Shown in pieces: positions 3,078-20,720 of a stretch of DNA of 61,003 bases; the first letter of the stretch is position 1, and each line of letters starts with the position of its first letter. This DNA comes from Caldilineaceae bacterium (GTDB lineage: Bacteria; Chloroflexota; Anaerolineae; Caldilineales; Caldilineaceae): positions 1 to 61,003 of the forward strand of contig JALSIX010000085.1 in the NCBI GenBank assembly GCA_026989655.1, written 5' to 3'. A model generated the notes under the pieces. That model had not been told where the DNA came from. It was given only the letters and a program-made list of their open reading frames with translations, and did not search any database. The position numbers and the translations under genes were made by a program.

Positions 3078-6000
3078 TCACCGCTCCACACTAGGCAGGA
3101 AGATGAACCAGGTCCCCGGTGAGGGCGCGGACGGGTCCACGACGATCGTCCCCTGGTTCAGGGGATTCTCCCCATCCCTGTAGGCGAAGCTGCCCGTCTC
3201 GTCCAAGCGCAGGCGGAAGCTCTCCCCCGGCCAGAGGACGCCGCTGTTCCACGCGTCCCCCTGCACCGAGTGCTCGGCCAGATCCACATTCACCCATGCC
3301 ACCACCGTGCCCGGTGGAACGGTCAACACGTTGGGTGCAAAGCCGCCTTCGCCGACCATCATGGTCACGTCCGGCGGGTCGCTCACAGCTGGCGCCAGGT
3401 GGATGGTGGGGTTCATGCCCCCGGCATCCACCTCCATCCCGGCCGTGCGATAGGGCTGATAGCCCGTCTTCGTCACCAGCAGCCGGTAGACCCCCGGCGG
3501 TGGCGCGAAGAAGAAGCTGCCGTCCGCGGCCGTGGTCTGGGGATTGGCCTGGCCCAGGTCGCTGTCCAGAGGAACAGCGCCAAAGTCGGCCCCCCTCGCG
3601 GACAGGGAAGCCTGCTCCGCCAGCAGAACGACCTGCGCGCCGACCACCGGCTGCCCGGTGACCGCATCCACCACCGTGCCCAGGGCATCCATCTCGCCGC
3701 TGACGTCAAAGGTGGTCACGGCCTGGGTCGCGCCGTCAGCCGAGGTTACGGTCAGACTCAGGTTGGCCCTACTGCTGGTCCGGAGCCGCCCTCCTAGATC
3801 CAGGAGGCCGGTGTAGCGGCCGTCCCCATCCGGGTCGGTGAGAACAATGTTCTTCTCCGTCTCGCCGATGTATTTGCTCACCACATGCTCCAGTTCCGTG
3901 CAGCCGGTGACACCCAGCTCGAAGGGGCCGCTGCCGGGCAGACGCAGATTGCGCCAGCTCGTCCCCAGGGTGTCCATGGCGAAGATCCGCCCCGCAGCGT
4001 CGATGACGGTGAAACTGGCCGGATCCACAGGCAGAGCGCCATCCACCCGCACCGTCAACCCCGATCCCATGGGGCGCCCCAGGGCGTCTGCCTGGAACCC
4101 CACCCAGACCTCGATCTGGTGCAGGCCGTCAGAGAGGCCAGTGAGCGGCTGCTGCCAGCGGCCATCCGCCCCAACCAGGACGGTCAGACCCATGTCCACA
4201 CCATCCAGCATCAGGCGAAGCCGCGCCCCGGGAGTGGCCCGGCCCACCAACTGGATCCCATCCCGACAGGTGCTTCCCTGCCGAAGGAGCGGCAACCCGT
4301 CGCCTGTGCGGAAGCCCATCTGCACGAAGGGCGTCTCCTCGATCCCGGTGGCGGCGCTGTCGTTGCCTGGGTTGGCGTCGTTTTGGCTGCTGACCGTGAC
4401 CGTGGCCGTGTAGCGGCTGCCCCCGGTCAGGCTGCGTGCCCCGGTCTGGGGTTGCCAGCCCACCAGGATGGAGCCGCCCGTGCCCGGCGCCAGGTCCCCC
4501 AGAGCGAAGACGATCTCGCCGTCGCCGGGGCGTACGGCGTTGTTAGGCAGGCCCGGGGCGGAGACATGGACCAGTTGGGGCTGGCCGCCGAATCCGGTCA
4601 GCTTTTGGGTGATCTTCACATCCTGCGCCTGGGCGTTGCCCTCGTTGCCGTAGGTGATGCGGAACTGGGCAAAGCGTTCCGTGTCCAACGAGGTTTCGTT
4701 GCCGAAATCGGGCTGGTTGACCCACGTGCTGCTCTGCGCCACCACGACGTCCGCGGTTCCGGGCGGCCGCCAGAGGTAGTCCTCGGTCTCACCCAGGCGG
4801 TAGCCCTTGGCCGGTCCCCGACCATCGCCGTAGGTGCGGCTGGGCAGTTTGGGCGACTTGGCCTCGCTCAGGGTGATGCGCAGCCACGCGGCTTGGTCCG
4901 TCAGGCTGTCCGGCCAGAGGGCCTTGACGTTGCTCACCATGCTCACCAGGTTGTTTCCCGGCGTGAGCTGGCCCACGCTCACCGGATGGTCGATGACGAT
5001 GTGCTCCAGGGCCAGGTCGCCGGGCTGCTGGCTGCACGGGCCGGTGTCGTTCCAGTCCCCGTCCCGGTTGCCGTCGATCCACACGTTCAGGTAGAGCACC
5101 TGGATGTTCCGCTTCAGCAGAGCCTGCTTCGCCTGGTTGTTGAGCAACTCCACCCGCACCTGCATCCGAGCCGGTTGGCAGTTCTTCAGGGCGACAGAGG
5201 AGAGCTTTAGCCCGTCGTCGAAGCGGTCCCGGCCGGCCGCGTCCTGGCCGGGCAGCAGATTGTTCGTGGGGTCCGCGTCCGGGCCCGCGTCGGCCTCAGC
5301 CTCCATGCTCACCCGGGGACCCAGGTGCACGGGCCGGGGATAGCGGTGCAGGGGGCCTGCAGCCTCGCCGGGCAGGCGGGCAAAGACCGTGGGGAAGCGG
5401 GCCGTGACGCCCGGGTAGGCGGTCATGGTCTGGCCGGCGTGGTTCGTGCTGTCCGGCGCGTCGCCCAGATCGTTGGGCCGCACGGGGACGGTCACCGTGA
5501 CCTGGCCGGTGGGATCGGGGATCGGGCCTGGATCCGGGCAGGGGATGCGGGGCTGGCCAGGGCCGCCCTCGCCGCAGCCAGCAGCCAGCCCGGAGCGGGC
5601 CTGTTCCGGCCCGGTGGTGGCGCAGGTACGGCCGTCCCCGGTCAGCAGGCAGTAGACCACGCCCACGGTCAGGGAAACGTCCCCGTCCAGCAGGCTGTCG
5701 GGAGAGATGGCGCGGCCGGGCTTGATGGCCTGGTCCACGCTTCGGCTCTCGCCTGGGGCCAGGGCCAGCAGGGTGATGCGCTGGGCTGGCCCGGCGCCCA
5801 TCTGGCTGGAGCCGACGGCCAGCAGCCGGGGACGGCTTACGCCCAGGAGCACCGGGACCGGCGCGTCGTTGCGGAAGGTGGTGCGCAAGGTCAGGCCGTG
5901 GCCAGGCAGGAGGCTCGGATCGTAGGGCGCCCAGGCCGGTGCGTCGGTCCGCATCACCTGCTGGTTCACCTGGATGTCGTCCAGGGTGGCCAGAGGGCAG

Positions 6001-6500
6001 TGGACCTGGATCTCCCGGCTGGCCTGCTCCGTCTCCCCACTTGGACGCTGGGCCACCGCGAGGATGGTCAGGACACGAAAGCCGCCCCAGCAGTGATCCA
6101 CCCGCACGGGCACGCGCAGGGTGAGCTGGCCGCCGTTGTCCAACGCGCCCTGCCACGCCACCGTATTCCCGCGGCGGCGCACCTGGAGTGGGTCCACCGA
6201 CTGGGCCGGGCTCTCGGAGAGGATGGTCCGTTCGGCCAGCTTCAGGCCCCTAGGCAGGGTGGTCGTCACCCCGGTGTTGACCGTTCCACTGCCGCCGGTG
6301 TAGGCCAGGGTCACGGTGAGGGTGAACGCGTCCCCTGGCCGGACGGACTGCCCTGCTGGAACGCTGGTGTCCACGGTCAGGTCCAGGGACGGCGCGGCCA
6401 GGACGGGGAGGGTGGAGAGTAGGGAGTAAAGAGCAATGAGTAAGACCGGTGCGACGAGACGGGTCCACATGTCTCGGTGATGGCTGTTGAGGGTAGTCAT
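3078..6500 (-). CDS. secreted multidomain surface protein (DUF11-like, GEVED, carboxypeptidase-regulatory-like, cupredoxin fold)
   Basis: About 1140 residues. The ATG at 6500 (MTTLNSHH) has AAGGA upstream and gives a clean signal peptide ending LPVLAAP; an ATG at 6569 would add 23 unlikely residues. Domains in order: a DUF11/alpha-beta-sandwich-like region (about 40-160), a segment opening DLGDAPDS, a GEVED-type domain ending GETEDY (about 440-580), a second DUF11-like region (about 590-720), Ig-like stretches, a carboxypeptidase-regulatory-like domain (VVDAVTGQPVVGAQV, about 945-1030) and a C-terminal cupredoxin-like domain (about 1040-1125). It ends TWFIFLPSVER. The cupredoxin keeps one His (AEHSV) but lacks the usual Cys-His-Met set, so copper binding is doubtful. 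It is the last gene of the surface operon, 115 bp after the dockerin protein. A structural or adhesive role is inference. Confidence 0.75.
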   Translation of the reverse strand: MTTLNSHHRDMWTRLVAPVLLIALYSLLSTLPVLAAPSLDLTVDTSVPAGQSVRPGDAFTLTVTLAYTGGSGTVNTGVTTTLPRGLKLAERTILSESPAQSVDPLQVRRRGNTVAWQGALDNGGQLTLRVPVRVDHCWGGFRVLTILAVAQRPSGETEQASREIQVHCPLATLDDIQVNQQVMRTDAPAWAPYDPSLLPGHGLTLRTTFRNDAPVPVLLGVSRPRLLAVGSSQMGAGPAQRITLLALAPGESRSVDQAIKPGRAISPDSLLDGDVSLTVGVVYCLLTGDGRTCATTGPEQARSGLAAGCGEGGPGQPRIPCPDPGPIPDPTGQVTVTVPVRPNDLGDAPDSTNHAGQTMTAYPGVTARFPTVFARLPGEAAGPLHRYPRPVHLGPRVSMEAEADAGPDADPTNNLLPGQDAAGRDRFDDGLKLSSVALKNCQPARMQVRVELLNNQAKQALLKRNIQVLYLNVWIDGNRDGDWNDTGPCSQQPGDLALEHIVIDHPVSVGQLTPGNNLVSMVSNVKALWPDSLTDQAAWLRITLSEAKSPKLPSRTYGDGRGPAKGYRLGETEDYLWRPPGTADVVVAQSSTWVNQPDFGNETSLDTERFAQFRITYGNEGNAQAQDVKITQKLTGFGGQPQLVHVSAPGLPNNAVRPGDGEIVFALGDLAPGTGGSILVGWQPQTGARSLTGGSRYTATVTVSSQNDANPGNDSAATGIEETPFVQMGFRTGDGLPLLRQGSTCRDGIQLVGRATPGARLRLMLDGVDMGLTVLVGADGRWQQPLTGLSDGLHQIEVWVGFQADALGRPMGSGLTVRVDGALPVDPASFTVIDAAGRIFAMDTLGTSWRNLRLPGSGPFELGVTGCTELEHVVSKYIGETEKNIVLTDPDGDGRYTGLLDLGGRLRTSSRANLSLTVTSADGATQAVTTFDVSGEMDALGTVVDAVTGQPVVGAQVVLLAEQASLSARGADFGAVPLDSDLGQANPQTTAADGSFFFAPPPGVYRLLVTKTGYQPYRTAGMEVDAGGMNPTIHLAPAVSDPPDVTMMVGEGGFAPNVLTVPPGTVVAWVNVDLAEHSVQGDAWNSGVLWPGESFRLRLDETGSFAYRDGENPLNQGTIVVDPSAPSPGTWFIFLPSVER
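6417..6444 (-). repeat. heptamer array (GAGTAAR type), inside signal-peptide codons
   Basis: The plus strand reads as four 7-bp units GAGTAGG, GAGTAAA, GAGCAAT, GAGTAAG. It is an inverted copy (24 of 28 identical) of the array at 6581-6608. It lies inside the coding sequence for the signal peptide of the 3078-6500 gene. Confidence 0.65.
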
Positions 6501-6580
6501 GGTCTGTTTCCTTATCATCAACGGCGCGAATGCGCGGCAGAAAAATTGAGCTTGCTCGTTTCTGAGCATCCTGTTTGTCG

Positions 6581-6615: not shown

Positions 6616-9600
6616 TCAGAACGGACATTCTCCATCCCAGTTGAAATCCGCCTCGGTGGTCGAGCCCTTCAGGGGAATGACGAAGTCCAGGGTCAGGATG
6701 CACTTGATGCAGCCCTTGTCCTCCCGAACCTTCTGTTTGGTGGTCCACTTCTCCGGTTCGCAGAAGCCGCAGCCGGCCCCGGCCCAGGCGTCGCCGGTCA
6801 GGTCCAGGGCGTTGCTGCCGAAGTCGTTGTCCAGTTGCAGGGTGACGCTGGCCTTGACCGCGGCCACACAGAGGGCCTTGCCCGTGGCGTTGACCCCCAG
6901 GCGCACGCCCCAGGCGTTGTTGGGCTGACCTGCTTCGGTGAAGACCCAGAAGGCCACCTCGCCGCCGCCGCTGATGCGCACGCCGGGGCAGCTCCCCAGC
7001 AGGTCGAAGATGACGATGTTGTTGGCGTAGAGCTGCATGTACGCGCCCTGGATGACCATACCGGGGTCCGGGTCCATAGCCGCCATGATGTCGCCGTACT
7101 CCTGCTCCAGCACCGGGCTGCTGGGGTCCAATCGCCCGAAGAGGAAGGCCCCGCCCACGTTGATCCTGCCGATGGTCTCCAGCTCCACCCACAGGTCCAG
7201 GCTGGCGCCGGTGTAGAGGAGTACAATCTGCTGGTCGTCCACGGTGAATCCGGCCACGGCGCCGGCCTTGTCCACCGTGGCCGCCTGGGTCTCGATATCG
7301 TAGAGGGTCACCCCGCCCTCGATGCCGTAGCCCAGGTCGTCCAGATCGAAAAGCAGGCGCATGTCCGCGTCCAGGCGCACATCCAGGTCGGCCATGGTGG
7401 TGCCCAGGTCCCGGGTGTTCAGGTAGACCGAGCCGTTCGGGTCCCACTCCATGGAGAAGTCCCCGGCCAACAAGGTCTTGGGCTCTGGGCCTGCGGGATC
7501 CCGTTCGTTGTCGTAGACGGTCACGTAGGCATCGGCCTGGAGTAGGTCCAGCTCCCCGCCGATGATCCGGCCACTGCTGTCGGTGACTGGGCGCACGGTG
7601 GCGTCGCCCCGCACCCATTGGAGTTGCAGGGGCGAGTTGGCCAGCTTCTGCTGGAAGAGGGGCAGGCCCACGTGTACGTCCGCGAAGGCGCCGTCCGTCA
7701 GCCAGTCGGAGACGATGCCCCCGTGGGCCTCGGCCTTGGCATCCACGTCGTCGATCAGCGTGCGGTAGTCGTCGAAGCCTTCCTGTTTGGCCAGGTAGGC
7801 GGCCAGCTTGGCCTCCAGTGCACAGTCCCAGCCGGCCCCGAAGAGGCTGAAGAGGGGCCCGTTGTCCCCGCCGCTGCCGGAGCACCAGTCCAGGAAGCGC
7901 TGCTCCAGCTCGGCCCGGGAGCCCGCGGGGTCGTTGCCCGGGAGGGTGACCCAGGCTTCGTTCGCGGCCAGGAACATGCCCGTGGCCGAAGGAAAGCCGA
8001 AGAAGATGCGCTCTGTGTCCGGTTCCACCACCAGGGCGTTGGGGATCTCCGCGATGATCACCTCGGCCAGCTTGTTGTCCAGCACGCTGATGTCCCGTCC
8101 CTGGGAGGTGGCCAGGCCCACCCAGCGACTGGCCACCCCTGTGCCCTGGGACTGGGCGTAGAGCAGTTCGTACTGGAGCTGGATGTCCAGGGCCGGGCTG
8201 AAGACATGCTCGGCCAGAGGCCGCTTGTCGAAGCCCACGTAGGGGTCCCCGCCCAGCAGGTACATGTGGTCCGCGTTGGGGTCTGTGGCCTCGCCGAAGA
8301 AGGGCAGGTAGACCCCCGCGCTCAGCTCTACGAAGCCCCCTTCCAGGCCGGGTGTGGCCGTGCAGCCGTTCTGTTGGGGCAGGCAGGGCGCGGGCGCCAG
8401 GGTGGCGCTTCGATCCCAGCCCGGCCTCTCCCGCAGATTCAGCGCCGGGTCGTAGTCGCTCAGGCGCAGGTCCTGCATGACCACGTAGAAGTCGTCCACA
8501 GTGTAGACCGTGTCCTCCGGGTAGACTTCTCCGTCGTAGGGGGTGCCGTCCGGGTTGAAGGCCAGGGCCATCTCCACCAGGGGATCGCCCCTGTTGCCGT
8601 CCAGCCGTTCCAGGTTGGCGATCTGGGCCTCCAGCTCGATCCAGAGCTTGTCCGCATCATCGAAGAAGATGGCCCAAGGGAGCACGGTCACCTGCCAATA
8701 GTCCAGGTCCTCCTCCTTGGGCAGGAGCGCGCCGCCCACCACGCAGCCAGCCTCGTCCAGGAGGAGCTGATCGAACTGGAAAATGGCCTCCGCGGGGTAG
8801 GGCAGGTAGAATTTGCCCGCGGACGCGCTGTCGTAGGGCCAGTTGCTCAGCCAGCTCTGGGCGAAGCGGCTGATGCGGAACTGGTAGTCGGCTAGGGTGG
8901 CGGGCAACGGGCTGGCTGGCTGCATGTTCACCACCCCACTGACGCCGCTGCGCCGGACGTAGAGGTCCACGTCGCTGCCGCCGGTGAAGGGAAAGGCCAG
9001 GGGTGAGGGAGCCGCAGGGGTGGGGCAGGGGGTCCAGTCCAAGTCATGGCCGTAGGCGTTGAGGCCGGGCTGGGCCCGCTCATCGCCGGGCAGGCCACTG
9101 GCCGCCGCGCCCAGGGAGGCGGGCCAGCTCACGTTGGGCAGGCCGGAGGTCATCACCGGCGGGATGTAGAGGGCGTAGTCCCCGTCGTAGGCCCGGAATT
9201 CGGTCCAGGTGATGGTGTCCGTGGACGTGACCGTGCCGGTGATACCCCCGTTGGCCGTGATGTCCAGTTGCACGTAGTTGCCGCTGAAGCTGTTCAGGGC
9301 GAAGCCGTCCGTGTCCTTGCGGTAGTCGAGGCTGAGGCTGTCGCCCACCAGTTTGCGGGTAAGCCGCCCCTGGCTGAGTTGGCCGTCCACGAAGCGGAAG
9401 CTGCGTGCGCTGCTGCCTACCTCCACACCGAAGGGGTAGGCCGTGGTGTAGGTGTGAGGGAGGACGCTGACCCAGCAGCCGTTCAGGCCGTCTTTCACGC
9501 TGTAGGTGGCGTCGCCCGTTCCCGTGCAGAGGCCGGTCTTGGCGTCTGTCGCCAGGATCTCCATGAAGCCGTCGTTGCGGTAATCCAGCGTCCCTTGCTG

Positions 9601-12600
9601 GCCCGCAAGCTGCATGAAGCGGTCCCGGTAGAGGGTACAGGTGCTGCCGAACTGGACACCTGTCTCGTCAATGGTGAAGTCGCTCGTGGGCACGACGGTC
9701 AGGGACCAGTCCCGCACACCGAAGGGGAAGACGATGCTGGTCTTGGGCGTCAGGCAGGTCTGGCTCACCGGGAGTACATGGCTGAAGCGCAAGGTGTCGT
9801 CCTCGATGAGGACGCCCTGGGAGGCGGCCTCCACCGGGTAGCCGGGGCCATCGGTCTGGAGCTTGTAGGGGGTGAAGTCCGGGCCGAAGTCGTAGATGCG
9901 TACGGTGGCCTTGGCGCCGAACTTGTCCAGGGTCATGTCCTTCACCGTGTAGCGCACCCGGTTGGTCCGCTCCACGGCCATGGTCCCCAGGAGCACATCG
10001 CCGCTGCCTCCGCTCACGTTGCCGTTGCCGTCCGCGCTGACGCCGGAGAAGGTCACCTTGACCGGCGTATTGGCGCCCGGGCTGGGCCGTAGGGTCACCT
10101 GGCCGTTGCCGGCCAGGTTGCCCGCGGTCTTGTTACTATAGCTGGTGACGGTCACGTCCCAGGTTCCAAAGCGGAGGGTGGCCGGTGGGTCGCCCGGTCC
10201 TGGGGTGAAGGTCCCCGATTCCGGCGGCGTGTGGGCCACACTGGGCAGAGGCTTGTCCGGGATGGTGGCCTGGATCACGTTTGACTTGGCGGTGATCTCG
10301 CCCCGGGCCGTGACAGGATCGATGTTCGTTCCGTCGAAGGTCCCGGCGGAGATGCGCACCAGCTGGTAGTAGGCCGTGTCCCCGGGATGCACGTCGAGGT
10401 CGTAGAGGTTATCGGTGATGCCGATGATGGGGCTGATGGGCGTGAAACCGTCCACGCCGTTCTGGCTGCGGAAGACGATGTAGCAGCACTGTCGGTTGCC
10501 GTTGGTGGCGGAGGGATCGTCGATGGTGATGGCCACGCCGTTGCCGTCGGGCGGACCGCTCACCCACTCCACCTGGATGGTGAAGCTCTGCTGGTAGCGT
10601 TCGGACTCATCCAAGCCCACGTAGCGGGCCGGGTAGGGTCTGGACGCGGCCCTGTTCCCGGCCACATCCACCGCCTCCACCGCGTACCAGAAGATGTTGT
10701 TGCTCTGTAGAACGGAGCTGCTATCGATGAACTCGAAGGTCCGATCCGCCTCCGGCTGGCCGTTCACCAGGATCTCGCCGATCTGGGACATGGCGGCCAC
10801 GTCCGTAGGTCGATCCTCGCCCTTGGCCCGGTAGACGATGAACTTCTCCAGGTTCTGCTCCCCGACTGTGGTCCAGGTCACCCGGCCCTGGAAGCCACTG
10901 TCGACGCGGGCCTCCAGGATGGCCGGCGGGATGAGCTGTTGGGCCACGCCCGGGCTCAGGACCCGGGTGAGGGTGAAGGCAGAGGCGTCACCCAGGTTGC
11001 CCGCCTCGTCCACCCCCCGGATCTCGTACCAGACGGGGGTCTCCCGCAGGGGCGCGTAGTCGTCGCTCCAGGAGGTCCAGACGAAGCTTTCCCCAGGGGA
11101 AACGTCCACCTGGTCCACCAGCACGGCCACGCCGTCCAGGCTGAACTTGCGGTAGACCTCCACCGTCTCCACGTCGTCGTCCTCCAGGAAGCAGATGTCC
11201 TTCGGGTTGCCCAGGATGTCCATGGTGCAGGCGATGGGCGCGGCCGGCGGGTAGATGTCGTCCACCTTGCTGACCTGGGGCGCACTGGGTGCGCTCATGT
11301 TGCCCCGTTTGTCCACGGCCACCACCCGGTACCAGTAGTCTTGGTGCTCTTGGAGGCCACTGTCACTCAGGACCATCTCCTCCCTGCATACATCCGGCGT
11401 CAGGATGTCGATCCGCTCCCACTCGTCCGGCCAGACGGCCAGGGCGCTCTTGGCCCGGTAGAGCTCGAAACGCTGCCAGTCCTCGTTGCCCTCCACCGCA
11501 GGGTCGAAGGTGAAGACCACTTGCACGTCCGCGGGGTTGCCCTTGCCGTTGTATACCGTCTCCACCCGTAGCAGGTCCGGCGCGCCAGGGGGCCGGTAAT
11601 CCGGGGGTTGCAGACAGGTCTGAGGAGAGAGGCTCCCGTCCTGCTGGAGCAGGTCCAGGGAGGTGACGCTGTAGCAGTACATCCTGGATGTGTCCAGGTC
11701 GAAATCGGCCCAATGGTACTCGAACTCGTGGGCCTCCACGCCGTAGGCCAGGCGACCGCCGCTCACGTCCTCGGGGGCGCTGACGTCCTCAGGCTGGGGC
11801 TGAGGGAAGACAGGATACTCGTTGATCCGCTCCCAGCCGCTGCAGTTGACCGGGCCGGGATCGCAGGTGCGCCGGTAGACGTTGAAGCCGTTCTGCCAGA
11901 CCGGGTCCGTCTCGGGCAGGTCCAGGTCCAAGTTCCAGGTGAGATAGATGTTGGCGTGGGCCTGCCGCAGGGCACGTAGGCGCACCGCGTCGTTCAGCGC
12001 GCCGCTCGAGGGAACAGGCAGATTGGCCTCGATCTTCGAGCCGGCGTCGAAGGCATTGACGCCACTGGGATTGGGCAGGCGAGTGGGCCGGGTCGTGTCC
12101 ACCTCCACCGGCCCCAGGAGGATCTCGTCAGGTTGGCCTGCCCCCACCCGGATCCAGTAGCGGTGGACGCCTGTGCCGCTGAAGTCGGTGTCCAGATAGC
12201 CCAATCCGAAGACCTGGGCCACGCCGGGGTTCCGGCTGGCCAACCAGGAGACCAGCATGGGGTTGTCCCCAGCCTGGACGTAGGCGTGGATCTGGGAGAT
12301 GCTGTTCAGGGGAATGGGGTTGCCGTCCCCGTCCCGCTCGTAGCCGTTGCGCAGGGTCTCCCAGTGCTCGTCCAGGAGGGGCAGAGCCGTGGCGTCGTCG
12401 GTGATGGGGGAGACGGTGGCCACGATGCCCGCGCTCCCCACACCGGCGCTGGGGGAGCCGGCCGGGGCCGGCTCCCGCAGGACCTCCACGGGGGTGGTGT
12501 AGAGGTCCACGGCGTCAGTGAGGGCCCAGCGCAGGAAGACATTTCCGGCCGAATCCACCCCGTAGCCGAAGCGGCCTTCCTCGGTGGCGGCCCGGGTGGC

Positions 12601-12879
12601 TCCTCGCCAACGCCGCCGGCCCTCCTGCAGGTCGGTCAGGTCCACCACACCGTCGCCGTTCAGGTCCAGGCGAGCCGGATCGGTCCGGGGCGTGGACTGG
12701 ATGGCCCCCGCGATCTGCTGGAGGTCAGCTACGTCGATGCGGCCGTCGCAGTTCACGTCTCCCTGAACGCAGGGCTCCCCGGAGGACTGGGCGTAGGAGG
12801 TGGCCGCCACAAAGAGGACGAGCAGGAGCATTCCCGCAATGGGAAAGGCGTAACGAAGGCTGAGCAGATGGCGTCTCAT
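6616..12879 (-). CDS. giant secreted protein with N-terminal dockerin-like module and fibronectin-III-like repeats
   Basis: 2087 residues. A signal peptide ends near SYAQS. It is followed by a dockerin type I-like pair of calcium loops, DVNCDGRIDVADLQ and DLNGDGVVDLTDLQ (about residues 39-86). Residues about 90-900 hold several fibronectin-III-like domains with repeated phrases such as 'YWYRVVAVDKRGN' and 'WYEIRGVDEAGN'. The remaining 1200 residues are beta-rich and I recognise no family in them; the C-terminus (DFNWDGECPF) lacks the LP tail of its neighbours. The start is 9 bp after the stop of the cohesin-like gene, whose TAG overlaps the TAGGAG ribosome binding site, so translation is probably coupled. 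A dockerin normally binds a cohesin, and the upstream neighbour is cohesin-like, so the two may assemble on the cell surface (inference). Confidence 0.75.
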   Translation of the reverse strand: MRRHLLSLRYAFPIAGMLLLVLFVAATSYAQSSGEPCVQGDVNCDGRIDVADLQQIAGAIQSTPRTDPARLDLNGDGVVDLTDLQEGRRRWRGATRAATEEGRFGYGVDSAGNVFLRWALTDAVDLYTTPVEVLREPAPAGSPSAGVGSAGIVATVSPITDDATALPLLDEHWETLRNGYERDGDGNPIPLNSISQIHAYVQAGDNPMLVSWLASRNPGVAQVFGLGYLDTDFSGTGVHRYWIRVGAGQPDEILLGPVEVDTTRPTRLPNPSGVNAFDAGSKIEANLPVPSSGALNDAVRLRALRQAHANIYLTWNLDLDLPETDPVWQNGFNVYRRTCDPGPVNCSGWERINEYPVFPQPQPEDVSAPEDVSGGRLAYGVEAHEFEYHWADFDLDTSRMYCYSVTSLDLLQQDGSLSPQTCLQPPDYRPPGAPDLLRVETVYNGKGNPADVQVVFTFDPAVEGNEDWQRFELYRAKSALAVWPDEWERIDILTPDVCREEMVLSDSGLQEHQDYWYRVVAVDKRGNMSAPSAPQVSKVDDIYPPAAPIACTMDILGNPKDICFLEDDDVETVEVYRKFSLDGVAVLVDQVDVSPGESFVWTSWSDDYAPLRETPVWYEIRGVDEAGNLGDASAFTLTRVLSPGVAQQLIPPAILEARVDSGFQGRVTWTTVGEQNLEKFIVYRAKGEDRPTDVAAMSQIGEILVNGQPEADRTFEFIDSSSVLQSNNIFWYAVEAVDVAGNRAASRPYPARYVGLDESERYQQSFTIQVEWVSGPPDGNGVAITIDDPSATNGNRQCCYIVFRSQNGVDGFTPISPIIGITDNLYDLDVHPGDTAYYQLVRISAGTFDGTNIDPVTARGEITAKSNVIQATIPDKPLPSVAHTPPESGTFTPGPGDPPATLRFGTWDVTVTSYSNKTAGNLAGNGQVTLRPSPGANTPVKVTFSGVSADGNGNVSGGSGDVLLGTMAVERTNRVRYTVKDMTLDKFGAKATVRIYDFGPDFTPYKLQTDGPGYPVEAASQGVLIEDDTLRFSHVLPVSQTCLTPKTSIVFPFGVRDWSLTVVPTSDFTIDETGVQFGSTCTLYRDRFMQLAGQQGTLDYRNDGFMEILATDAKTGLCTGTGDATYSVKDGLNGCWVSVLPHTYTTAYPFGVEVGSSARSFRFVDGQLSQGRLTRKLVGDSLSLDYRKDTDGFALNSFSGNYVQLDITANGGITGTVTSTDTITWTEFRAYDGDYALYIPPVMTSGLPNVSWPASLGAAASGLPGDERAQPGLNAYGHDLDWTPCPTPAAPSPLAFPFTGGSDVDLYVRRSGVSGVVNMQPASPLPATLADYQFRISRFAQSWLSNWPYDSASAGKFYLPYPAEAIFQFDQLLLDEAGCVVGGALLPKEEDLDYWQVTVLPWAIFFDDADKLWIELEAQIANLERLDGNRGDPLVEMALAFNPDGTPYDGEVYPEDTVYTVDDFYVVMQDLRLSDYDPALNLRERPGWDRSATLAPAPCLPQQNGCTATPGLEGGFVELSAGVYLPFFGEATDPNADHMYLLGGDPYVGFDKRPLAEHVFSPALDIQLQYELLYAQSQGTGVASRWVGLATSQGRDISVLDNKLAEVIIAEIPNALVVEPDTERIFFGFPSATGMFLAANEAWVTLPGNDPAGSRAELEQRFLDWCSGSGGDNGPLFSLFGAGWDCALEAKLAAYLAKQEGFDDYRTLIDDVDAKAEAHGGIVSDWLTDGAFADVHVGLPLFQQKLANSPLQLQWVRGDATVRPVTDSSGRIIGGELDLLQADAYVTVYDNERDPAGPEPKTLLAGDFSMEWDPNGSVYLNTRDLGTTMADLDVRLDADMRLLFDLDDLGYGIEGGVTLYDIETQAATVDKAGAVAGFTVDDQQIVLLYTGASLDLWVELETIGRINVGGAFLFGRLDPSSPVLEQEYGDIMAAMDPDPGMVIQGAYMQLYANNIVIFDLLGSCPGVRISGGGEVAFWVFTEAGQPNNAWGVRLGVNATGKALCVAAVKASVTLQLDNDFGSNALDLTGDAWAGAGCGFCEPEKWTTKQKVREDKGCIKCILTLDFVIPLKGSTTEADFNWDGECPF

Positions 12880-12888
12880 GGCAGGCTC

Positions 12889-13464
12889 CTACGGATTGTT
12901 GCTGATGCTGGGCAGATAGAGGCGATGGCCGCCGGCGCCCAAGGTGAGTTCGGTGGATTCCAGGAGGGGCGTCACCGCCTGGCCCTGGCGATCTGTAACC
13001 AAGCCGTCGGTCAGGCCGATGGCGGTGGTCCCGGTGCGTCCGGTAGGCTGGAAGTGGAGCAAGGCGACCACGCCCTCCCCGTCCAGGCCTGAGGCCCGGC
13101 CGTAGGAGACGGCACCCAGGTTCACTCCGCCCAGGGTGGGCCGGGGTCCCAGGAGCAGCACGCAGCGCTTTCCGGACGGGTCACAGTCGGCCTGGTCGTT
13201 GCCCAGGCCTGGGGCCGCTTCCATGTCGGCCAGGGTCAGGAAACTTGGGTCGTAGGTCAAGGTGAGCTCCCAGGCGGCCAGAGCCGTGGCCTCCAGCGCG
13301 TGGAGTTCCACGGTCACCGGGGCCAGGGCGGGCAGGTCGTCCGTGGGGGCCACCAGGCGCAGGGTGGGTGCGGAGGCCGCGGATGGCCGAACACTCCCTA
13401 GGAAGGCGACCAGGGTCAGGGTCAAAAGGGCGGCCGCGAGGGCCAGAATGTGGGTGCGGTTCAT
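12889..13464 (-). CDS. secreted single-domain cohesin-like protein
   Basis: 191 residues: signal peptide (about 1-31), one cohesin-type beta-sandwich (about 32-180) and the C-terminal tail LYLPSISNNP. Cohesin-like phrases are the early V.VELHALEA strand, WELTLTYDPSFLTLADME, and VALLHFQPTG near the end, matching the 'f.L.yDp..L....v..G' and 'l..l.F' pattern of PF00963. Start ATG 13464 has GGAGGA upstream. It lies between the beta-helix protein (37 bp gap) and the dockerin protein (9 bp gap) in one operon. Cohesin-like domains outside cellulosomes often have unknown partners; here the adjacent dockerin is the obvious candidate. The assignment is by pattern, not by search. Confidence 0.65.
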   Translation of the reverse strand: MNRTHILALAAALLTLTLVAFLGSVRPSAASAPTLRLVAPTDDLPALAPVTVELHALEATALAAWELTLTYDPSFLTLADMEAAPGLGNDQADCDPSGKRCVLLLGPRPTLGGVNLGAVSYGRASGLDGEGVVALLHFQPTGRTGTTAIGLTDGLVTDRQGQAVTPLLESTELTLGAGGHRLYLPSISNNP

Positions 13465-13501
13465 GGGTTCCTCCGTCGGAGATCGCCTCGGGCCCTGTAC
13501 G

Positions 13502-16231
13502 CTATCTGCTCACCAGGGGCAGGTGGATGGAGAGGGTGTCGTCGTCCTGGATGGTGCCGGTGGCCTGGCCGTCTGCCAGGATCCCGTTCACCGGGTTGCT
13601 CAGGGCGAGGGTGAAGGTCTCATCGGGTTCGTCCACCGCGTCGCCCAGCACGGGGACCTGGATGGTCCGGCGAGTCTCGCCGGGGTTGAAGGTGAGGGTG
13701 CCGCTGACCGGCGAGTAATCGCTGCTGGCGGTGGCCGTGCCATCGCGGGTGGTGTACTCCACGGTGGTGGTCTTCCCCGAGGCTGGGGAGAGGGTGACCG
13801 TGAAGACCGCGTCCACGCTGCCGGCATTTCCCTCCTCCAAGCTCACATCGGCCACGCTCAGGGAGGGAAGGCCGTCGTCATTCAGGATCGTGATGATCGC
13901 GCTGGTGGCCTTGATGGAGACCGGGTCCGGGTTCCGGAGACGCACGGAGAAATTCTCGTCCTCCTCGAACGCGATGTCCCCCAGGATGGTGACGGGGATC
14001 TGCTGCCCGGTCTGGCCCGGGGTGAAGGTCAAAGCGCCCGTGGCGGTGATGTAGTCCACGCCTGGAGTGGCGAAGTCAGGACCACAGCAGGCGCTCGCGG
14101 AAAGATACTCCACAGTGACGGTGAAGGATGCCGGTGTAGTCAGGGTCACTGTGAGCACGGTGGAGGTGTCGCCGCTGTCCCCTTCCTCCACCTGGATGCT
14201 GGCGCCCATGGACACCTGCGCGATGTCGTCGTCCTGGATGGTGCCGGTGGCTTGGCCGTCTGCCAGGATCCCGTTCACCGGGTTGCTCAGGCTGAGGAAA
14301 AAGGTCTCGTCGGACTCGTCCACCACGTCACCCATCACCGGGACCCGGACGGTCTGGCTGGTCTCGCCGGGGTTGAAGGTGAGGGCGCCGCTGACCGAGG
14401 CGTAGTCGCTGCCTGGGGTGGCCGTGCCGTCGCGGGTGGTGTAGTCCACGGTGACGGTCTTCCCAGAGGCTGGAGAGAGGATGACCGTGAACACCGCATC
14501 CACGCTACCGACATTTCCCTCCTCCAAGCTCACATCGGCCACGCTCAGGGCGGAGAGGCCATCGTCGTCCACGATGGTGGCCTGCCCGATGGCATCCTGC
14601 ACATCCCCACCCTGGGGATTGCTCAACACCAGGCTGAAGTCCTCGTCCGGCTCCTCGTCCACATCGCCCAGGACGGGCACGCTGATCGTCCTGGTGGTCT
14701 CGCCGGGGTTGAAGGTGAGGATGCCGCTGACCGGTGTGTAGTCGCTGCCTGCGGTGGCGGTGCCGTCCTGGGTGGCATAGTCCACGGTGACCGTCTGGGC
14801 GGAGGCAGGCGCCAGGGTCACGGTGAAGACTGCGCTGCTCGTACCGCTGTCTCCCTCGTCCACCACCACGTCGGCCACACTCAGGCTGCTGCGCAGTTCG
14901 AAGGCGCCTTTGTCGCAGATGGCCGTGCCGCTGTTGTCCCCATCCACCGGCCGGGCCACGCCCCGCTGATCCGTGGCCGGACAGTTCGCGGGATCCCCGT
15001 TATCCACGGCAGCACTGCCCGGCATCAAGGCATGAGTCCAGGTGCTTCCGCCGTAGTCGCCCAGGGGCTCCAGCAGCGGATCGGCGTTCTGGAGATCGCC
15101 GGTGCCGGTGAACTGGCAGTACGTGTCGTCGGAGAGGTTGTACCCGGCAGAGGCCCAGGTGCCGCCGGCCAGGCAGTTGCGCCCTTCGTTGTTGGCCACG
15201 ATGCTGTTGTGGATGGTCATGCTACCCGAGTTGTACACGCCGCCGTAGACGACGAAGCTCGACTTGCTGGACTGGTTGTGGACCACAGTGTTGCTCTCCA
15301 GCAGGGTCTCGGCGTTGGTGAGAGAGGCCAGGCCGCCTCCGGTATCCGCCTCGTTGTCGCTGAGGGTCACGTTGGTCAGGGTGAGGACGCCGGAGTAGTT
15401 TAAGAGGCCGCCCCCGTAGTAGCTAGGCGCCTGGTTGCCGACAAATGTGCTACGGAGCACTTCCACCGGACCGTTGAGCATGTTCAACCCGCCGCCGCCC
15501 TGGCTGGTGGCTTGATTGTCCCGGAATGTGGTGTCCACGATGTAGGCGGTCGCGTTGTTGTAGATCCCACCTCCGCCTGTGGCTTTGTTGCCAGCGAACA
15601 GACTATCCGTTACCGTCAGGTAGCGGGTGTAGCTGGGATGGCCAAAGCCATAGATGCCCCCGCCTAAGCTTGCAGAGACGTTGCTGATGACCTGACTCTC
15701 CTGGAGCACAAGTTGGTTGTTGTTGTAGATGCCGCCCCCGGAGGACTCGGCAGTGTTGCTCATCACCCGCACTCGCTGCAGGGTCATCTCGCCGAAGTTG
15801 AAGATGCCCCCCCCTTTGTCATTGCCGGTGGCCAGGCCGTTGCGCACGGTCAGGTCGGCCAGGGTGACAGCCAAGGTGCCGGTGATCACCCGGGCTCGCT
15901 GGCCCCCATCGAGGATGGTGGCTTCCATGCCGGCGCCCACCAGGGTGATGTCCTGGAGGTCCAGGTTGGCGTCGTAGATTCCGACGGCGATCTGGACGGT
16001 ATCCCCCGCTCCAGCCCTGGTGACCGCCTCAGCCACCGTAGCGCAGGCGGTGGTTGGGGTCTGACAATCGTTGCTATCGCTGCCCGTGGCCCCATCCACG
16101 TACCAGGTGGCGGCTGTCGGCCCGGCCAGGACCAGGCTCATGTGCAGGACGGTTAGGAGCAGGGCGCTGAGGATAGCGATAGGAAACAGGCGGTCCAGGC
16201 GCCACGTTCGGCGAGGGGTGAACTCGTGCAT
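13502..16231 (-). CDS. secreted right-handed beta-helix protein with four CalX-beta domains
   Basis: 909 residues from ATG 16231 (MHEFTPRR, preceded by GAAGAGGA). Signal peptide/anchor about 1-40. A parallel beta-helix of the choice-of-anchor Q kind follows, with repeated 'GGGIYN' and 'GGGLLN' turns (about 45-440). Four CalX-beta domains then follow (about 445-900), each ending in a DDD or NDD calcium-binding turn, and the tail is IHLPLVSR. CalX-beta 2 and 4 are nearly identical, including at DNA level (13530-13850 versus 14230-14550), indicating recent internal duplication; domain 3 is divergent and carries a Cys-Cys pair. First gene of the four-gene surface operon. Likely a calcium-stabilised surface or adhesion protein (inference). 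Confidence 0.8.
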   Translation of the reverse strand: MHEFTPRRTWRLDRLFPIAILSALLLTVLHMSLVLAGPTAATWYVDGATGSDSNDCQTPTTACATVAEAVTRAGAGDTVQIAVGIYDANLDLQDITLVGAGMEATILDGGQRARVITGTLAVTLADLTVRNGLATGNDKGGGIFNFGEMTLQRVRVMSNTAESSGGGIYNNNQLVLQESQVISNVSASLGGGIYGFGHPSYTRYLTVTDSLFAGNKATGGGGIYNNATAYIVDTTFRDNQATSQGGGGLNMLNGPVEVLRSTFVGNQAPSYYGGGLLNYSGVLTLTNVTLSDNEADTGGGLASLTNAETLLESNTVVHNQSSKSSFVVYGGVYNSGSMTIHNSIVANNEGRNCLAGGTWASAGYNLSDDTYCQFTGTGDLQNADPLLEPLGDYGGSTWTHALMPGSAAVDNGDPANCPATDQRGVARPVDGDNSGTAICDKGAFELRSSLSVADVVVDEGDSGTSSAVFTVTLAPASAQTVTVDYATQDGTATAGSDYTPVSGILTFNPGETTRTISVPVLGDVDEEPDEDFSLVLSNPQGGDVQDAIGQATIVDDDGLSALSVADVSLEEGNVGSVDAVFTVILSPASGKTVTVDYTTRDGTATPGSDYASVSGALTFNPGETSQTVRVPVMGDVVDESDETFFLSLSNPVNGILADGQATGTIQDDDIAQVSMGASIQVEEGDSGDTSTVLTVTLTTPASFTVTVEYLSASACCGPDFATPGVDYITATGALTFTPGQTGQQIPVTILGDIAFEEDENFSVRLRNPDPVSIKATSAIITILNDDGLPSLSVADVSLEEGNAGSVDAVFTVTLSPASGKTTTVEYTTRDGTATASSDYSPVSGTLTFNPGETRRTIQVPVLGDAVDEPDETFTLALSNPVNGILADGQATGTIQDDDTLSIHLPLVSR

Positions 16232-16311
16232 GGTTGGGTCCTCTTCTCGTCTGTGGAATGGGTTGCCAGGATCAGTCATTCACGATTTGAGCCAAACAGA
16301 GGAGTGAGCAG

Positions 16312-17054: not shown

Positions 17055-20000
17055 CTATGGCATCTCTTTCGCGACCCGCGCGGGAAAGGAGATCCCCCGT
17101 TCGACCAGGGTCTGCATGTCCCGGAGGATGGTGCGACGGCTGACATCCAGGGCCTGGGCCAGGTCCGCGGCTGTGGGAGCTCCGCCTTGGGCCTGGGCTT
17201 CGACCAGGAGCCGGGCCAGGACGTTCCGTCGCCGTTCGGGGCCGCTGGCAAGGCGTAGATCCTCCGGCGTCTCCAGGGTCCAGGTGACGGAGATCCGGTC
17301 CGCGGGCGTGAGGGGGCGTCCTGTGGGGGCATCGGCCCGGGCGATCTGGGCAGTCGTTCGTCGGATGTGGCGTTCCCGGGCCTCCTGGAGCCGTTGGCAG
17401 TTGTCGATCTCCTGGGCGAAGCGTTCCCGTTCCTCGAGTTCCAGCGCGGCCATCTGTTCGTCCTCGGCCTCTTGGGCCTGGAGGAGGAACTCCAGGGCTT
17501 CCTCTGTTCGGCCCTGGATCCATCGGACCCAGTATCCAGCGACGTACAGCCCTATGCGGACATCCGGCGGGGGCAGGTCGGGGAGCTGGGCGAGGCTCTG
17601 GAGCATCTGGTCGAGGGCACTTTCGGCTGTCTGGGATGCTCCCTGTCGAGCCGCGACGTAGGCCAGATCGCTCGCGGTGAGCGCGGCGGTGAGGTGTTCT
17701 CCCAGCGAGCGCCGCACGTGCAACGAGGCCTCCAGAGCGGCCTGGGCATCGGCCAGGCGCCCCATGCGGAGGAAGGCCTGTCCTCGACAGTACTGGGCGA
17801 AGCCCTCCAGGCGCCTGAAGCCGATCTCCACGGCGATCTCCAGACATTCCTCCAGGCAGGTCAGAGCCTCCTTGAAACGGCGGAGGGAGAGATAGGCGCT
17901 GCCCAGGTTGTTGAGGTCCACCCCGATTCGGAGGCGGTGGCCCAGGGGACGGGAGATGGCCAGGGCCTGGCGGTAGCAGTCCAGGGACTGTTCCACCCGG
18001 CCCATGCGCATGGCAATGCCCCCCAGGCTGCTCAGGTTATGGCCTTCTTCGGCCCGATCGCCCAGCTCCCGGCAGAGGGCCAAGGCCCGCTCGTGGTTCT
18101 CCTGGGCCTTGGTGAAGCGGCCCAGTTCCAGGTAGACTCCGCCCAACAAAGTGAGGGTACGCACCTCACCGTGGAGGTCACCGATGCGGCGGTAGAGCGC
18201 GGCGGCCCGACGGTGCAGGGTGAGCCGCTTCTGGAGCTGTCCTGTGTTGTGGGCCACCATGGCCAGAAAGTTCAACGCCTCGGCGACGCCGGCCCGGTTC
18301 TGGGCCTGGGCGTAGAGGGCCTGGACCCGCTCGCCGTGGGTGCGGGCAGCCTCGTACCGCCCTCTCTGGTTCTCCAGACGCCCCAAAGCCAGGAGGAAGG
18401 CGGCCTCCAGGGCTGGATCTTGGGCGCGGCGGGCATGGCCCAAGCCGGTTTGGATCCGGTCTCGGGCAGCATCGAGCTGCCCCTGGGCCCGGAGATATCC
18501 TGTCCAGAGCAGGGTCACCTGGGCATGGCGGCGCCCGTCGCCCAGCTTTTCGGCCAGGCAGTCCAGTTCTTCCAAGGGTTCCACCAGCTCGGCCCAGCGC
18601 TCCAGGGCCTCTAGGCTCTGGGCCTGGCCATATCGAGCCTGAAAGCGGTCGATGGTCTGTTCTGGGGGCAGGACATCCAGGGCGCGCTGGAAATGGGCCT
18701 GGGCTTGGGCGAAGCTGGCCATGGCCAGAGCCCTCTTGCCAGCCTCCAGCGCGTGGAGGGCGATGGCCGGGAGATCCTCCGCGCCCTCCGCGTGGGAGAG
18801 GAGGACCTCTGGACCCTCCGCGGCTCGATTGCGGAGAACCCGGAGGGCCGCGGCGTGATAGGTGCGGCGACGCGGACGCGGAATCCGGGCGTACACCGCG
18901 GCCCGCAGGGTGTCGTGGACAAAGCGATAGAGTGTGTCCTCGGGGATCAGGAAGCGGGCCTGTTCCAGCTCCCCGGCCCAAACCGGCAGCTCCTGGGCCG
19001 GCAGGGCTGCCTGGATGCAGGTATCGTGCCAGTCCAGGTAGGCAAAGCGCTGGCCCAGGATCGCGGCCAACTCCACGGCGCGGAGGGCTTCGGGCGAGAG
19101 GTGCATCAGCCGCTGCTCGGTCAGATCTTCCAGGCCCAGGGTTTCGGCGTTCAGCAGACCGGGGGGGTTCAGGAATGTCAAGATGGCCAGAGGATTGCCG
19201 CCTCCTCGTTCGTGGAGGTAGGTCACCCATGCGTCCTTGTCCCCGGCGGGATCGGTCCCCGAGCCAGGAGGTGTTGTGGCGTGGCTGTGGCGGGCCAGTT
19301 CGGCCACCTCATCCCAGGTGAGGCCGGCCAGGTGGAGGACTGAAGCCTCTCTCCGGTCCCAGGAGAGCACCTGGGACCAGGCCGCTTCCTGGCGGCGGAG
19401 CGCCTGGGGACGCGCACTGAGAACCAGCAGCACGCCGATCTTCTGCAGCGCGGGCTCCACGGCCGCCAACACCGGCCACAGGGCCGGGTCCGCCCAGTGG
19501 ACGTCCTCCAGGATCAGGAGGTGGGGAGCGATCTGGTGGAGGCCTTTCAACAGCCGGACCAGGGCCATGGACAGGTCCTGGTTCATTTCAGGAGGGCCTT
19601 TCCGCGGGGGCTCGGCGAGGTCTCGGTCCACCGGGATCTCCTGGGCCAGTCCGGGGAACAGGGGGCGCAGGGCCCGCAGCCAGTGCGGCCGGAGCAGTTG
19701 TTGGAGCTGTTGGACCCGGGGTCGGGAGAACAGGCTCTCCAGGGCCTGTGCCAACGGAGCGTACGGCGGTGGATGGAGGTAGGCCTGGCTGTGTCCCCAG
19801 CTCACCTGCCAGCCACGCCAGTCCGCCGCGCCGGCAAGTTCTTCCAGCAGGCGGCTTTTGCCGATCCCGGGTTCCCCCAGGAGGGTCACCAGCCCTCCGT
19901 GGCCCCGATAGGCTCGGTCCAGTCGGTCCAGAAGCCAACGGCGTTCCGTCACCCGCCCCACGAAAGGAGGGGGTGCTGAGGAGGTCGGGGCCGCATGGAG

Positions 20001-20720
20001 GGTCAGCTCACGCTGTAGGCGTTCGGCCAGTTGCCGGGTGTCCTGGCTCGGTGAGATGCCGAGCTCCTGGTTCAGGTGAGTGGCAAAGGCGCTGTACTCC
20101 TGCAACGCATCCGCGATGCGCCCCTCCCGGGCCAGGCAGCGCATGACCCCTTGACAGACCGTCTCCCGTAGGGGGTCCAGGGCCAGGAGGCATCGCCAAC
20201 AGTGCAGGGCCTCTCGAGGGCATCCGGCCGCCTCCTCGTGTGTGGCCAGCCGTTCCAAGGCGTCCAGGAAACGCTCGTGGAGGTGGGTCCGTCGGGCCAG
20301 GATCCAGTCCACGTAGAGGCCTGGCAGAAGCTCGCCCCGATAGAGCTCGATGGCCTCGCGCAGAGCAGGAGCCGTGTCCTGGGCAACCCGTTGTTCGAAG
20401 CGCCATACATCGGTCCACAGGCTCTCCTCTGTCAGGGCCAGCGCAATGGAATGGCGGTCGATGGACAGCCAGTGCTCGCCCAACACGGTGTGCAGCCGAT
20501 AGAGCACGTCGGAGAGCCGGCGGCGAACCCTTTCCGGGCTTCCTTCGGGCCACAACAGTTCGGCCAATATCTCCCGATCGTGCGCCACTCCGGGATGGAG
20601 GATCAGGTATGCGAAGAGTTGGAGGACGTGGCCCTTCGGGATCGTGAGCGCTCTCCCCGAATCCACCACCTGGAGATCCCCCAGCAGGTAGACATGGCGA
20701 GAGGGTGGCATGGCCTTCAT
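17055..20720 (-). CDS. large BTAD/SARP-type transcriptional regulator with AAA ATPase, TPR repeats and C-terminal HTH
   Basis: 1221 residues. An N-terminal OmpR-type winged helix (about 5-100) is followed by a bacterial transcriptional activator domain (about 100-245) and an AAA/STAND-type ATPase. The ATPase has Walker A GEPGIGKSR (about 280) and Walker B LLILEDVHWAD. A long TPR solenoid (about 640-1060) includes canonical 'A....ALA..R.LGDRAEEG..L..LG' units. A C-terminal helix-turn-helix reads DLAQALDVSRRTILRDMQTL (about 1175-1200). Members of this class integrate a signal through the ATPase/TPR part and activate nearby genes. A second HTH at the far C-terminus is unusual. Likely target regions are its own promoter (20867-20896) or the downstream surface operon (inference). 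Cytoplasmic; ligand unknown. Confidence 0.85.
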   Translation of the reverse strand: MKAMPPSRHVYLLGDLQVVDSGRALTIPKGHVLQLFAYLILHPGVAHDREILAELLWPEGSPERVRRRLSDVLYRLHTVLGEHWLSIDRHSIALALTEESLWTDVWRFEQRVAQDTAPALREAIELYRGELLPGLYVDWILARRTHLHERFLDALERLATHEEAAGCPREALHCWRCLLALDPLRETVCQGVMRCLAREGRIADALQEYSAFATHLNQELGISPSQDTRQLAERLQRELTLHAAPTSSAPPPFVGRVTERRWLLDRLDRAYRGHGGLVTLLGEPGIGKSRLLEELAGAADWRGWQVSWGHSQAYLHPPPYAPLAQALESLFSRPRVQQLQQLLRPHWLRALRPLFPGLAQEIPVDRDLAEPPRKGPPEMNQDLSMALVRLLKGLHQIAPHLLILEDVHWADPALWPVLAAVEPALQKIGVLLVLSARPQALRRQEAAWSQVLSWDRREASVLHLAGLTWDEVAELARHSHATTPPGSGTDPAGDKDAWVTYLHERGGGNPLAILTFLNPPGLLNAETLGLEDLTEQRLMHLSPEALRAVELAAILGQRFAYLDWHDTCIQAALPAQELPVWAGELEQARFLIPEDTLYRFVHDTLRAAVYARIPRPRRRTYHAAALRVLRNRAAEGPEVLLSHAEGAEDLPAIALHALEAGKRALAMASFAQAQAHFQRALDVLPPEQTIDRFQARYGQAQSLEALERWAELVEPLEELDCLAEKLGDGRRHAQVTLLWTGYLRAQGQLDAARDRIQTGLGHARRAQDPALEAAFLLALGRLENQRGRYEAARTHGERVQALYAQAQNRAGVAEALNFLAMVAHNTGQLQKRLTLHRRAAALYRRIGDLHGEVRTLTLLGGVYLELGRFTKAQENHERALALCRELGDRAEEGHNLSSLGGIAMRMGRVEQSLDCYRQALAISRPLGHRLRIGVDLNNLGSAYLSLRRFKEALTCLEECLEIAVEIGFRRLEGFAQYCRGQAFLRMGRLADAQAALEASLHVRRSLGEHLTAALTASDLAYVAARQGASQTAESALDQMLQSLAQLPDLPPPDVRIGLYVAGYWVRWIQGRTEEALEFLLQAQEAEDEQMAALELEERERFAQEIDNCQRLQEARERHIRRTTAQIARADAPTGRPLTPADRISVTWTLETPEDLRLASGPERRRNVLARLLVEAQAQGGAPTAADLAQALDVSRRTILRDMQTLVERGISFPARVAKEMP

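Follow-up and report, generated by a model that had tools for sequence, protein, structure and literature searches.

Organization of the locus

The window analyzed here (the whole stretch of 61,003 nucleotides) is a single contig, C85, of a host genome of 4.09 Mb in 150 contigs. Four genes run consecutively on its minus strand at 13502-16279, 12889-13464, 6616-12879 and 3078-6569, separated by gaps of 37, 9 and 46 bp, respectively. The features of this block, all on the minus strand, are listed here in the direction of reading.

13502..16279, minus strand: gene upstream of the cohesin gene, 925 aa, with a beta-helix-like part, choice-of-anchor Q, four Calx-beta stretches and the tail IHLPLVSR
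13470..13474, minus strand: GGAGG, Shine-Dalgarno-like site 6 bp ahead of the cohesin ATG (sequence)
12889..13464, minus strand: cohesin gene, encoding a secreted single-cohesin protein of 191 aa (profile matches; orthologs adjoin the orthologous giant in G005/L065, G020/L068 and G023/L064)
13375..13464, minus strand: signal peptide region of the cohesin protein, residues 1-30, with basic start, hydrophobic core and ASA site (sequence inspection)
12952..13362, minus strand: cohesin domain, residues 35-171 (profile of above-cut-off cohesins; hhalign; PF00963)
12892..12921, minus strand: LP tail LYLPSISNNP at residues 182-191 of the cohesin protein, presumed to serve in anchoring or sorting (tail survey; genome-wide motif)
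12886..12891, minus strand: TAGGAG, combining the stop codon of the cohesin gene with a Shine-Dalgarno-like site for the giant gene (sequence)
6616..12879, minus strand: gene for a giant secreted protein of 2087 aa, with signal peptide, N-terminal dockerin, fibronectin-like and unknown beta-rich body, and no LP tail
12604..12768, minus strand: dockerin module of the giant, residues 38-92 (PF00404, 30.9 bits over residues 40-85; model)
12724..12759, minus strand: calcium loop 1, DVNCDGRIDVAD, residues 41-52 (sequence)
12631..12666, minus strand: calcium loop 2, DLNGDGVVDLTD, residues 72-83 (sequence)
3078..6569, minus strand: third gene of the block, 1163 aa, with DUF11, GEVED and CarboxypepD_reg domains and the LP tail FIFLPSVER

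The distance of 9 bp between the cohesin gene and the giant gene given in the preliminary description is exact, the gap being 12880-12888 up to the giant start codon at 12879. The cohesin stop codon TAG sits inside the TAGGAG ribosome-binding site of the giant gene; from this overlap and the spacing, co-transcription of the two genes is very likely and translational coupling probable. Scans for promoters and terminators gave nothing exceeding shuffled sequences. The gene at 13502-16279, although on the same strand and only 37 bp from the cohesin gene, is not conserved in the related genome G005. Upstream of the surface-protein block lies a large BTAD/AAA/TPR transcriptional-activator-like protein (17055-20720, minus strand), a possible regulator. 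No glycoside hydrolase was found by Pfam among the ~20 window genes scanned (a subset of the window's open reading frames), in agreement with the earlier remark that no carbohydrate-active enzyme is nearby.

The cohesin protein

The protein at 12889-13464 was described beforehand as a secreted, single-domain cohesin-like protein, and this description holds: its N-terminal signal peptide reads, by inspection, MNRTHILALAAALLTLTLVAFLG...ASA, and profiles locate one cohesin domain. The Pfam cohesin profile PF00963 matches residues 50-162 with 20.5 bits (E 5.7e-4), below its cut-off of 24.1; thus, of the profile searches suggested earlier with PF00963 and PF00404, the dockerin search succeeded over the cut-off (see below) and the cohesin search fell short of it. 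The ortholog in G020 (L068), which lies beside the orthologous giant, exceeds the cut-off with 32.1 bits. A profile made from 29 cohesins of this bacterial family, each over the Pfam cut-off, matches the window protein with 53.8 bits across residues 35-171, and hhalign comparison of the window cohesin with above-cut-off cohesins gives a probability of 98.6 % (E 5.8e-16) against 0.4 % for a reversed-alignment control. Given the above-cut-off G020 ortholog and the profile-profile comparison with its reversed control, the window module is assigned, by sequence profile, to the cohesin family. A spurious reading frame was considered and rejected in view of the secreted orthologs.

Structure prediction, also suggested earlier, was less informative for this domain. 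Cohesins have a nine-stranded jelly-roll beta-sandwich fold; the AlphaFold model, computed from an input of three sequences, is all-beta with very low confidence (pLDDT 41). Searches with this model in Foldseek and VIA-align gave Listeria lmo2686 and fluorescent proteins, none better than E 0.14, and these matches were discarded. When the three-sequence cohesin profile was compared with PDB sequences, the top match was to cohesins of 'Cellulosomal scaffoldin adaptor protein B' (E 0.0019), with no single stretch significant.

The giant protein and its dockerin module

The two dockerin-type calcium loops noted previously at the giant's N-terminus (residues 41-52 and 72-83) are borne out by PF00404 (Dockerin_1, type I), a single match to which spans both canonical 12-residue loops (30.9 bits against a cut-off of 22.9; E 3e-7; profile positions 2-50 of 57). 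Among orthologs, the dockerin scores 32.3 bits in G023 (hmmscan) and, in G005, 21.9 bits by hmmscan and 29.5 by six-frame search; the G020 giant has no Pfam dockerin match but reaches 42.8 bits when compared with a profile made from the other dockerins of the family. The giant's N-terminal module is, by these profile matches, a member of the dockerin family.

The predicted dockerin structure (pLDDT 77) has helices at 18-30 and 49-68, one after each loop and none ahead of the first. As expected, this modeled loop-helix layout fits a dockerin and not a classical EF-hand. The loop-helix elements asked of the prediction are present in the model, while their packing is unreliable (pTM 0.39; rmsd ~11 A to solved dockerins), and solved dockerins occupy eight of the first ten Foldseek rows, but at E 0.3 or worse. 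Neither outcome that the preliminary description named as refuting arose in the two models, which stop short of positive structural support.

Separately, cysteines in the motif PCxxxDVxC (C38 and the C45 region; window 12745-12768, minus strand) flank the start of calcium loop 1. The pair is kept in all four giant dockerins compared, and could possibly form a disulfide clamp.

Conservation of the pairing

The closest relatives found for the giant are in metagenome-assembled genomes named Caldilineaceae, Anaerolineae and Chloroflexi. The giant occurs in six genomes of the family, and a scan of genome contigs with the giant alignment returned five loci, all already known from the genome search. 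The upstream side is covered in four of the six genomes (the window, G005, G020 and G023, the last with only the final 35 cohesin codons on the contig), the contigs of G008 and G026 starting inside the giant. In all four, and thus in three of three testable relatives, a cohesin gene lies directly upstream; the pairing extends over related genera. Relative to the window copy, the giant is 74 % identical in G005 and 43 % in G020, and its dockerin 62 % in G005; the cohesin shares only 36-41 % identity with its orthologs. In G005 the giant is followed by an ortholog of the third gene of the block (3078-6569), 59 % identical, and in G023 by a fragment of one. In G020 the cohesin-giant pair is kept and the other neighbors are different, so that general synteny was rejected as the explanation of the adjacency.

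A second arrangement is found on contig C27 of the host genome, where a paralogous giant of ~2720 aa has a dockerin-like stretch directly ahead of the homologous body and is followed immediately by a 485-aa cohesin protein (21.1 bits). The gene order is the same on G008:C46, whose cohesin has no Pfam match yet is plainly similar to that of C27. The dockerin match in these paralogs is weak (5.8-12.8 bits).

The host genome encodes at least five further cohesin copies and three further dockerins elsewhere, and cohesin-dockerin specificity is unreadable from these sequences. Both facts leave room for the modules to be real and their partners to be others, the giant's dockerin binding the multi-cohesin proteins of contigs C12 and C42 and the small cohesin receiving other dockerins. 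This arrangement is judged unlikely, in view of the tight coupling of exactly the window pair, which is conserved while the G020 neighborhood changes, and of the existence of the second, paralogous pair.

The cohesins on C12 are fused to DUF4185 and a LamG domain, and that on C42 to a DUF5060-like protein (22.7 bits, under the cut-off of 27.2). The DUF5060 domain often accompanies glycosidases. These fusions are what speaks for a degradative, cellulosome-like system with its enzymes encoded elsewhere in the genome, a reading held to be very improbable: the C12 and C42 cohesin proteins, like the window genes scanned, have no glycoside hydrolase match in Pfam, and the genome's only Pfam dockerin matches are in the giant and in proteins with no recognized catalytic domain, none being in a recognized enzyme.

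In 46 genomes of the family, 26 of the 44 Pfam dockerin matches have a Pfam cohesin match at a distance of no more than 5 kb, where 0.4 would be expected by random placement, and the number rises to 30 of 44 once cohesins detected by the window protein are counted too; both counts include some cases within one protein. This genome-scale clustering bears on another explanation of the locus, in which the dockerin-like stretch would be a calcium-binding structural spacer and the cohesin-like protein a small beta-sandwich surface protein, the two sharing an operon as members of a coat. The other operon neighbors are likewise secreted, beta-rich proteins, and the window cohesin's sub-cut-off Pfam score and low-confidence model also favor such an explanation. 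It is nonetheless regarded as distinctly unlikely, since the cohesin profile match is full-length and an ortholog exceeds the cut-off, the dockerin match is a two-loop match over the cut-off and not a single EF-hand, and the two families cluster genome-wide.

Other arrangements of these modules were also seen. A separate multi-gene cohesin/dockerin cluster is present in relatives of the family (L105:5238-14998 and L117:4787-13971, also G020:C18 and G027:C177). Its members are proteins with C-terminal dockerins (one of which also has a Lamin Tail Domain), a protein combining cohesin and dockerin, and two further cohesin proteins, one ending in a membrane helix and Arg and the other in an LP tail; Pfam recognized no enzyme among the six L105 cluster proteins scanned. 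Single chains ordered cohesin-dockerin-cohesin occur at L050:3602-6991 (on the host's own contig C12), L056:2062-6696, L103, L104, L113 and L116. Most of them bear an LP tail, and in principle they could link up head to tail or each close on itself.

C-terminal LP tails

A sortase signal of the LPXTG type comprises the motif, a membrane helix and a positive tail; the cohesin C-terminus, GGHRLYLPSISNNP, lacks the motif and any hydrophobic stretch following it. A number of the secreted proteins encoded in the window terminate in an aromatic or aliphatic residue followed by L-P-x-hydrophobic. Such LP tails are found in the window on the cohesin protein (LYLPSISNNP, which deviates from the strict pattern after LP), on its operon neighbors (FIFLPSVER and IHLPLVSR) and on a PhoX-like protein (IYLPLLGRNP); the sites are 12892-12921, 3078-3107 and 13502-13531 on the minus strand and 2968-3006 on the plus strand. 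The giants have no LP tail and end in CPF (ECPF in the window giant).

In a family-wide survey of 74 complete C-termini, from genomes that are related to one another, 29 of 34 cohesin-only proteins had an LP tail ([YF]LPx[VI]xR type) or a membrane anchor, and an LP tail was present in 6 of 20 dockerin-only proteins and 15 of 20 proteins with both modules. Anchor-like ends thus differ between cohesin-only and dockerin-only proteins (Fisher p 7e-5), with an LP pattern that was widened after inspection; the earlier, narrower pattern gave 21/34 versus 6/21 for complete proteins.

The strict DNA pattern [YF]-L-P-x-[VI]-x-R-stop has 19 copies in the genome and none in reversed or scrambled form. All 19 are in frame at the ends of open frames, 15 of which exceed 500 codons. 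There are 20-55 copies in most genera of the family and up to 38 in a few other Chloroflexota families; the motif is absent from many. In two limited searches, no NCBIfam model matched the tail among the tailed proteins tested and no paper on it was found. The tail is possibly an undescribed sorting signal.

Discussion

The preliminary description proposed a two-component surface assembly unrelated to cellulose. The modules at family level, the signal peptides read by inspection on both proteins and the conservation of the pairing outside any cellulase context agree with that proposal and make such an assembly the best reading; the partnership itself, judged from sequence, is probable. With moderate confidence, the locus is interpreted as a non-cellulosomal cohesin-dockerin pair in which the cohesin is a surface socket and the giant, docked on it, has a coat or adhesive role. 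The short cohesin protein would be exported, held at the cell surface probably by its C-terminal LP tail, and there present one cohesin. The giant, exported by its own signal peptide and lacking a tail, would attach to this cohesin through its calcium-loaded N-terminal dockerin, and its fibronectin-like and beta-rich body of ~2000 residues would extend outward as a component of a surface coat or as an adhesive. The neighboring proteins with LP tails likely belong to this coat as well. The assignment of socket and docked partner is suggested by the finding that anchor-like ends are common on cohesin-only and uncommon on dockerin-only proteins.

Several observations weigh against this interpretation, namely the uninformative cohesin model, the weak dockerins of C27 and G008, and the LP tail on the six dockerin-only proteins. 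The low identity of the cohesin compared with that of the giant in G005 also sits uneasily with an obligate partnership; substitutions away from the interface may be tolerated in cohesins.

A close parallel in layout is ScaE of Ruminococcus flavefaciens, a single-cohesin anchoring scaffoldin that holds ScaB/CttA at the cell surface (PMC5301203). In both cases a short secreted single-cohesin protein with a C-terminal anchoring signal (here presumed) is encoded in one gene cluster with large dockerin partners. ScaE, however, has an LPXTG sortase signal and X-module-dockerin partners and is a member of a cellulosome (PMC5301203), whereas the window pair, in Chloroflexota, has an LP tail, an N-terminal dockerin and a cargo with no enzyme as far as Pfam shows. 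By analogy, the giant may dock on the cohesin as ScaB does on ScaE, but without cellulose. A cellulosome assembles dockerin-bearing enzymes for plant polysaccharides on a multi-cohesin scaffoldin; the pair, with its single cohesin, no glycoside hydrolase among the window genes scanned and no Pfam dockerin match of the genome in a recognized enzyme, falls outside this definition.

The cohesin-dockerin pair of Archaeoglobus fulgidus likewise lies outside any cellulosome. That pair is archaeal, with a different cargo and no reported LP tail. It binds and has been used for surface display (PMC9705933), and is cited as non-cellulosomal in passages of PMC9012536 and PMC9705933. ANME archaea also encode cohesin and dockerin proteins, among them scaffoldin-like multi-cohesin proteins, S-layer fusions and transporter substrate-binding cargo, and a conserved one-to-one cohesin-dockerin gene pair is not described there (PMC9012536). 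In 'Ca. Stygibacter' of the Cloacimonadota, an uncultured bacterium, dockerin proteins dock on a cohesin protein with its own C-terminal surface-attachment domain, as proposed here, but enzymes carry the dockerins and the scaffoldin, of 3755 aa, has tandem cohesins and carbohydrate-binding modules (PMC8542988). Non-cellulosomal cohesins and dockerins are thus established in archaea and diverse bacteria, according to passages of PMC9012536 and PMC8542988 (Peer et al. 2009 as cited there). By their titles and abstracts, none of the papers found that combine cohesin or dockerin with Chloroflexi is on this subject.

Against this background, a minimal conserved cohesin/dockerin gene pair with giant cargo in Chloroflexota, linked to a seemingly uncatalogued tail, appears to be new. 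A broader proposal, put forward tentatively and with some doubt, is that the undescribed LP tail is a general surface-sorting signal in some Chloroflexota and that LP-tailed cohesins are sockets for tail-less giant dockerin proteins, forming a non-cellulosomal plug-and-socket coat free of sortase signals.

The Chloroflexota cell envelope is poorly understood, and the locus offers a minimal, genetically coupled pair of one cohesin and one dockerin with a giant non-enzymatic cargo, conserved among Chloroflexota, with which the role of non-cellulosomal cohesins and dockerins becomes directly testable using two short proteins. The tail may be a new surface-sorting signal in Chloroflexota; if so, it would be a more surprising part of the finding than the pair.
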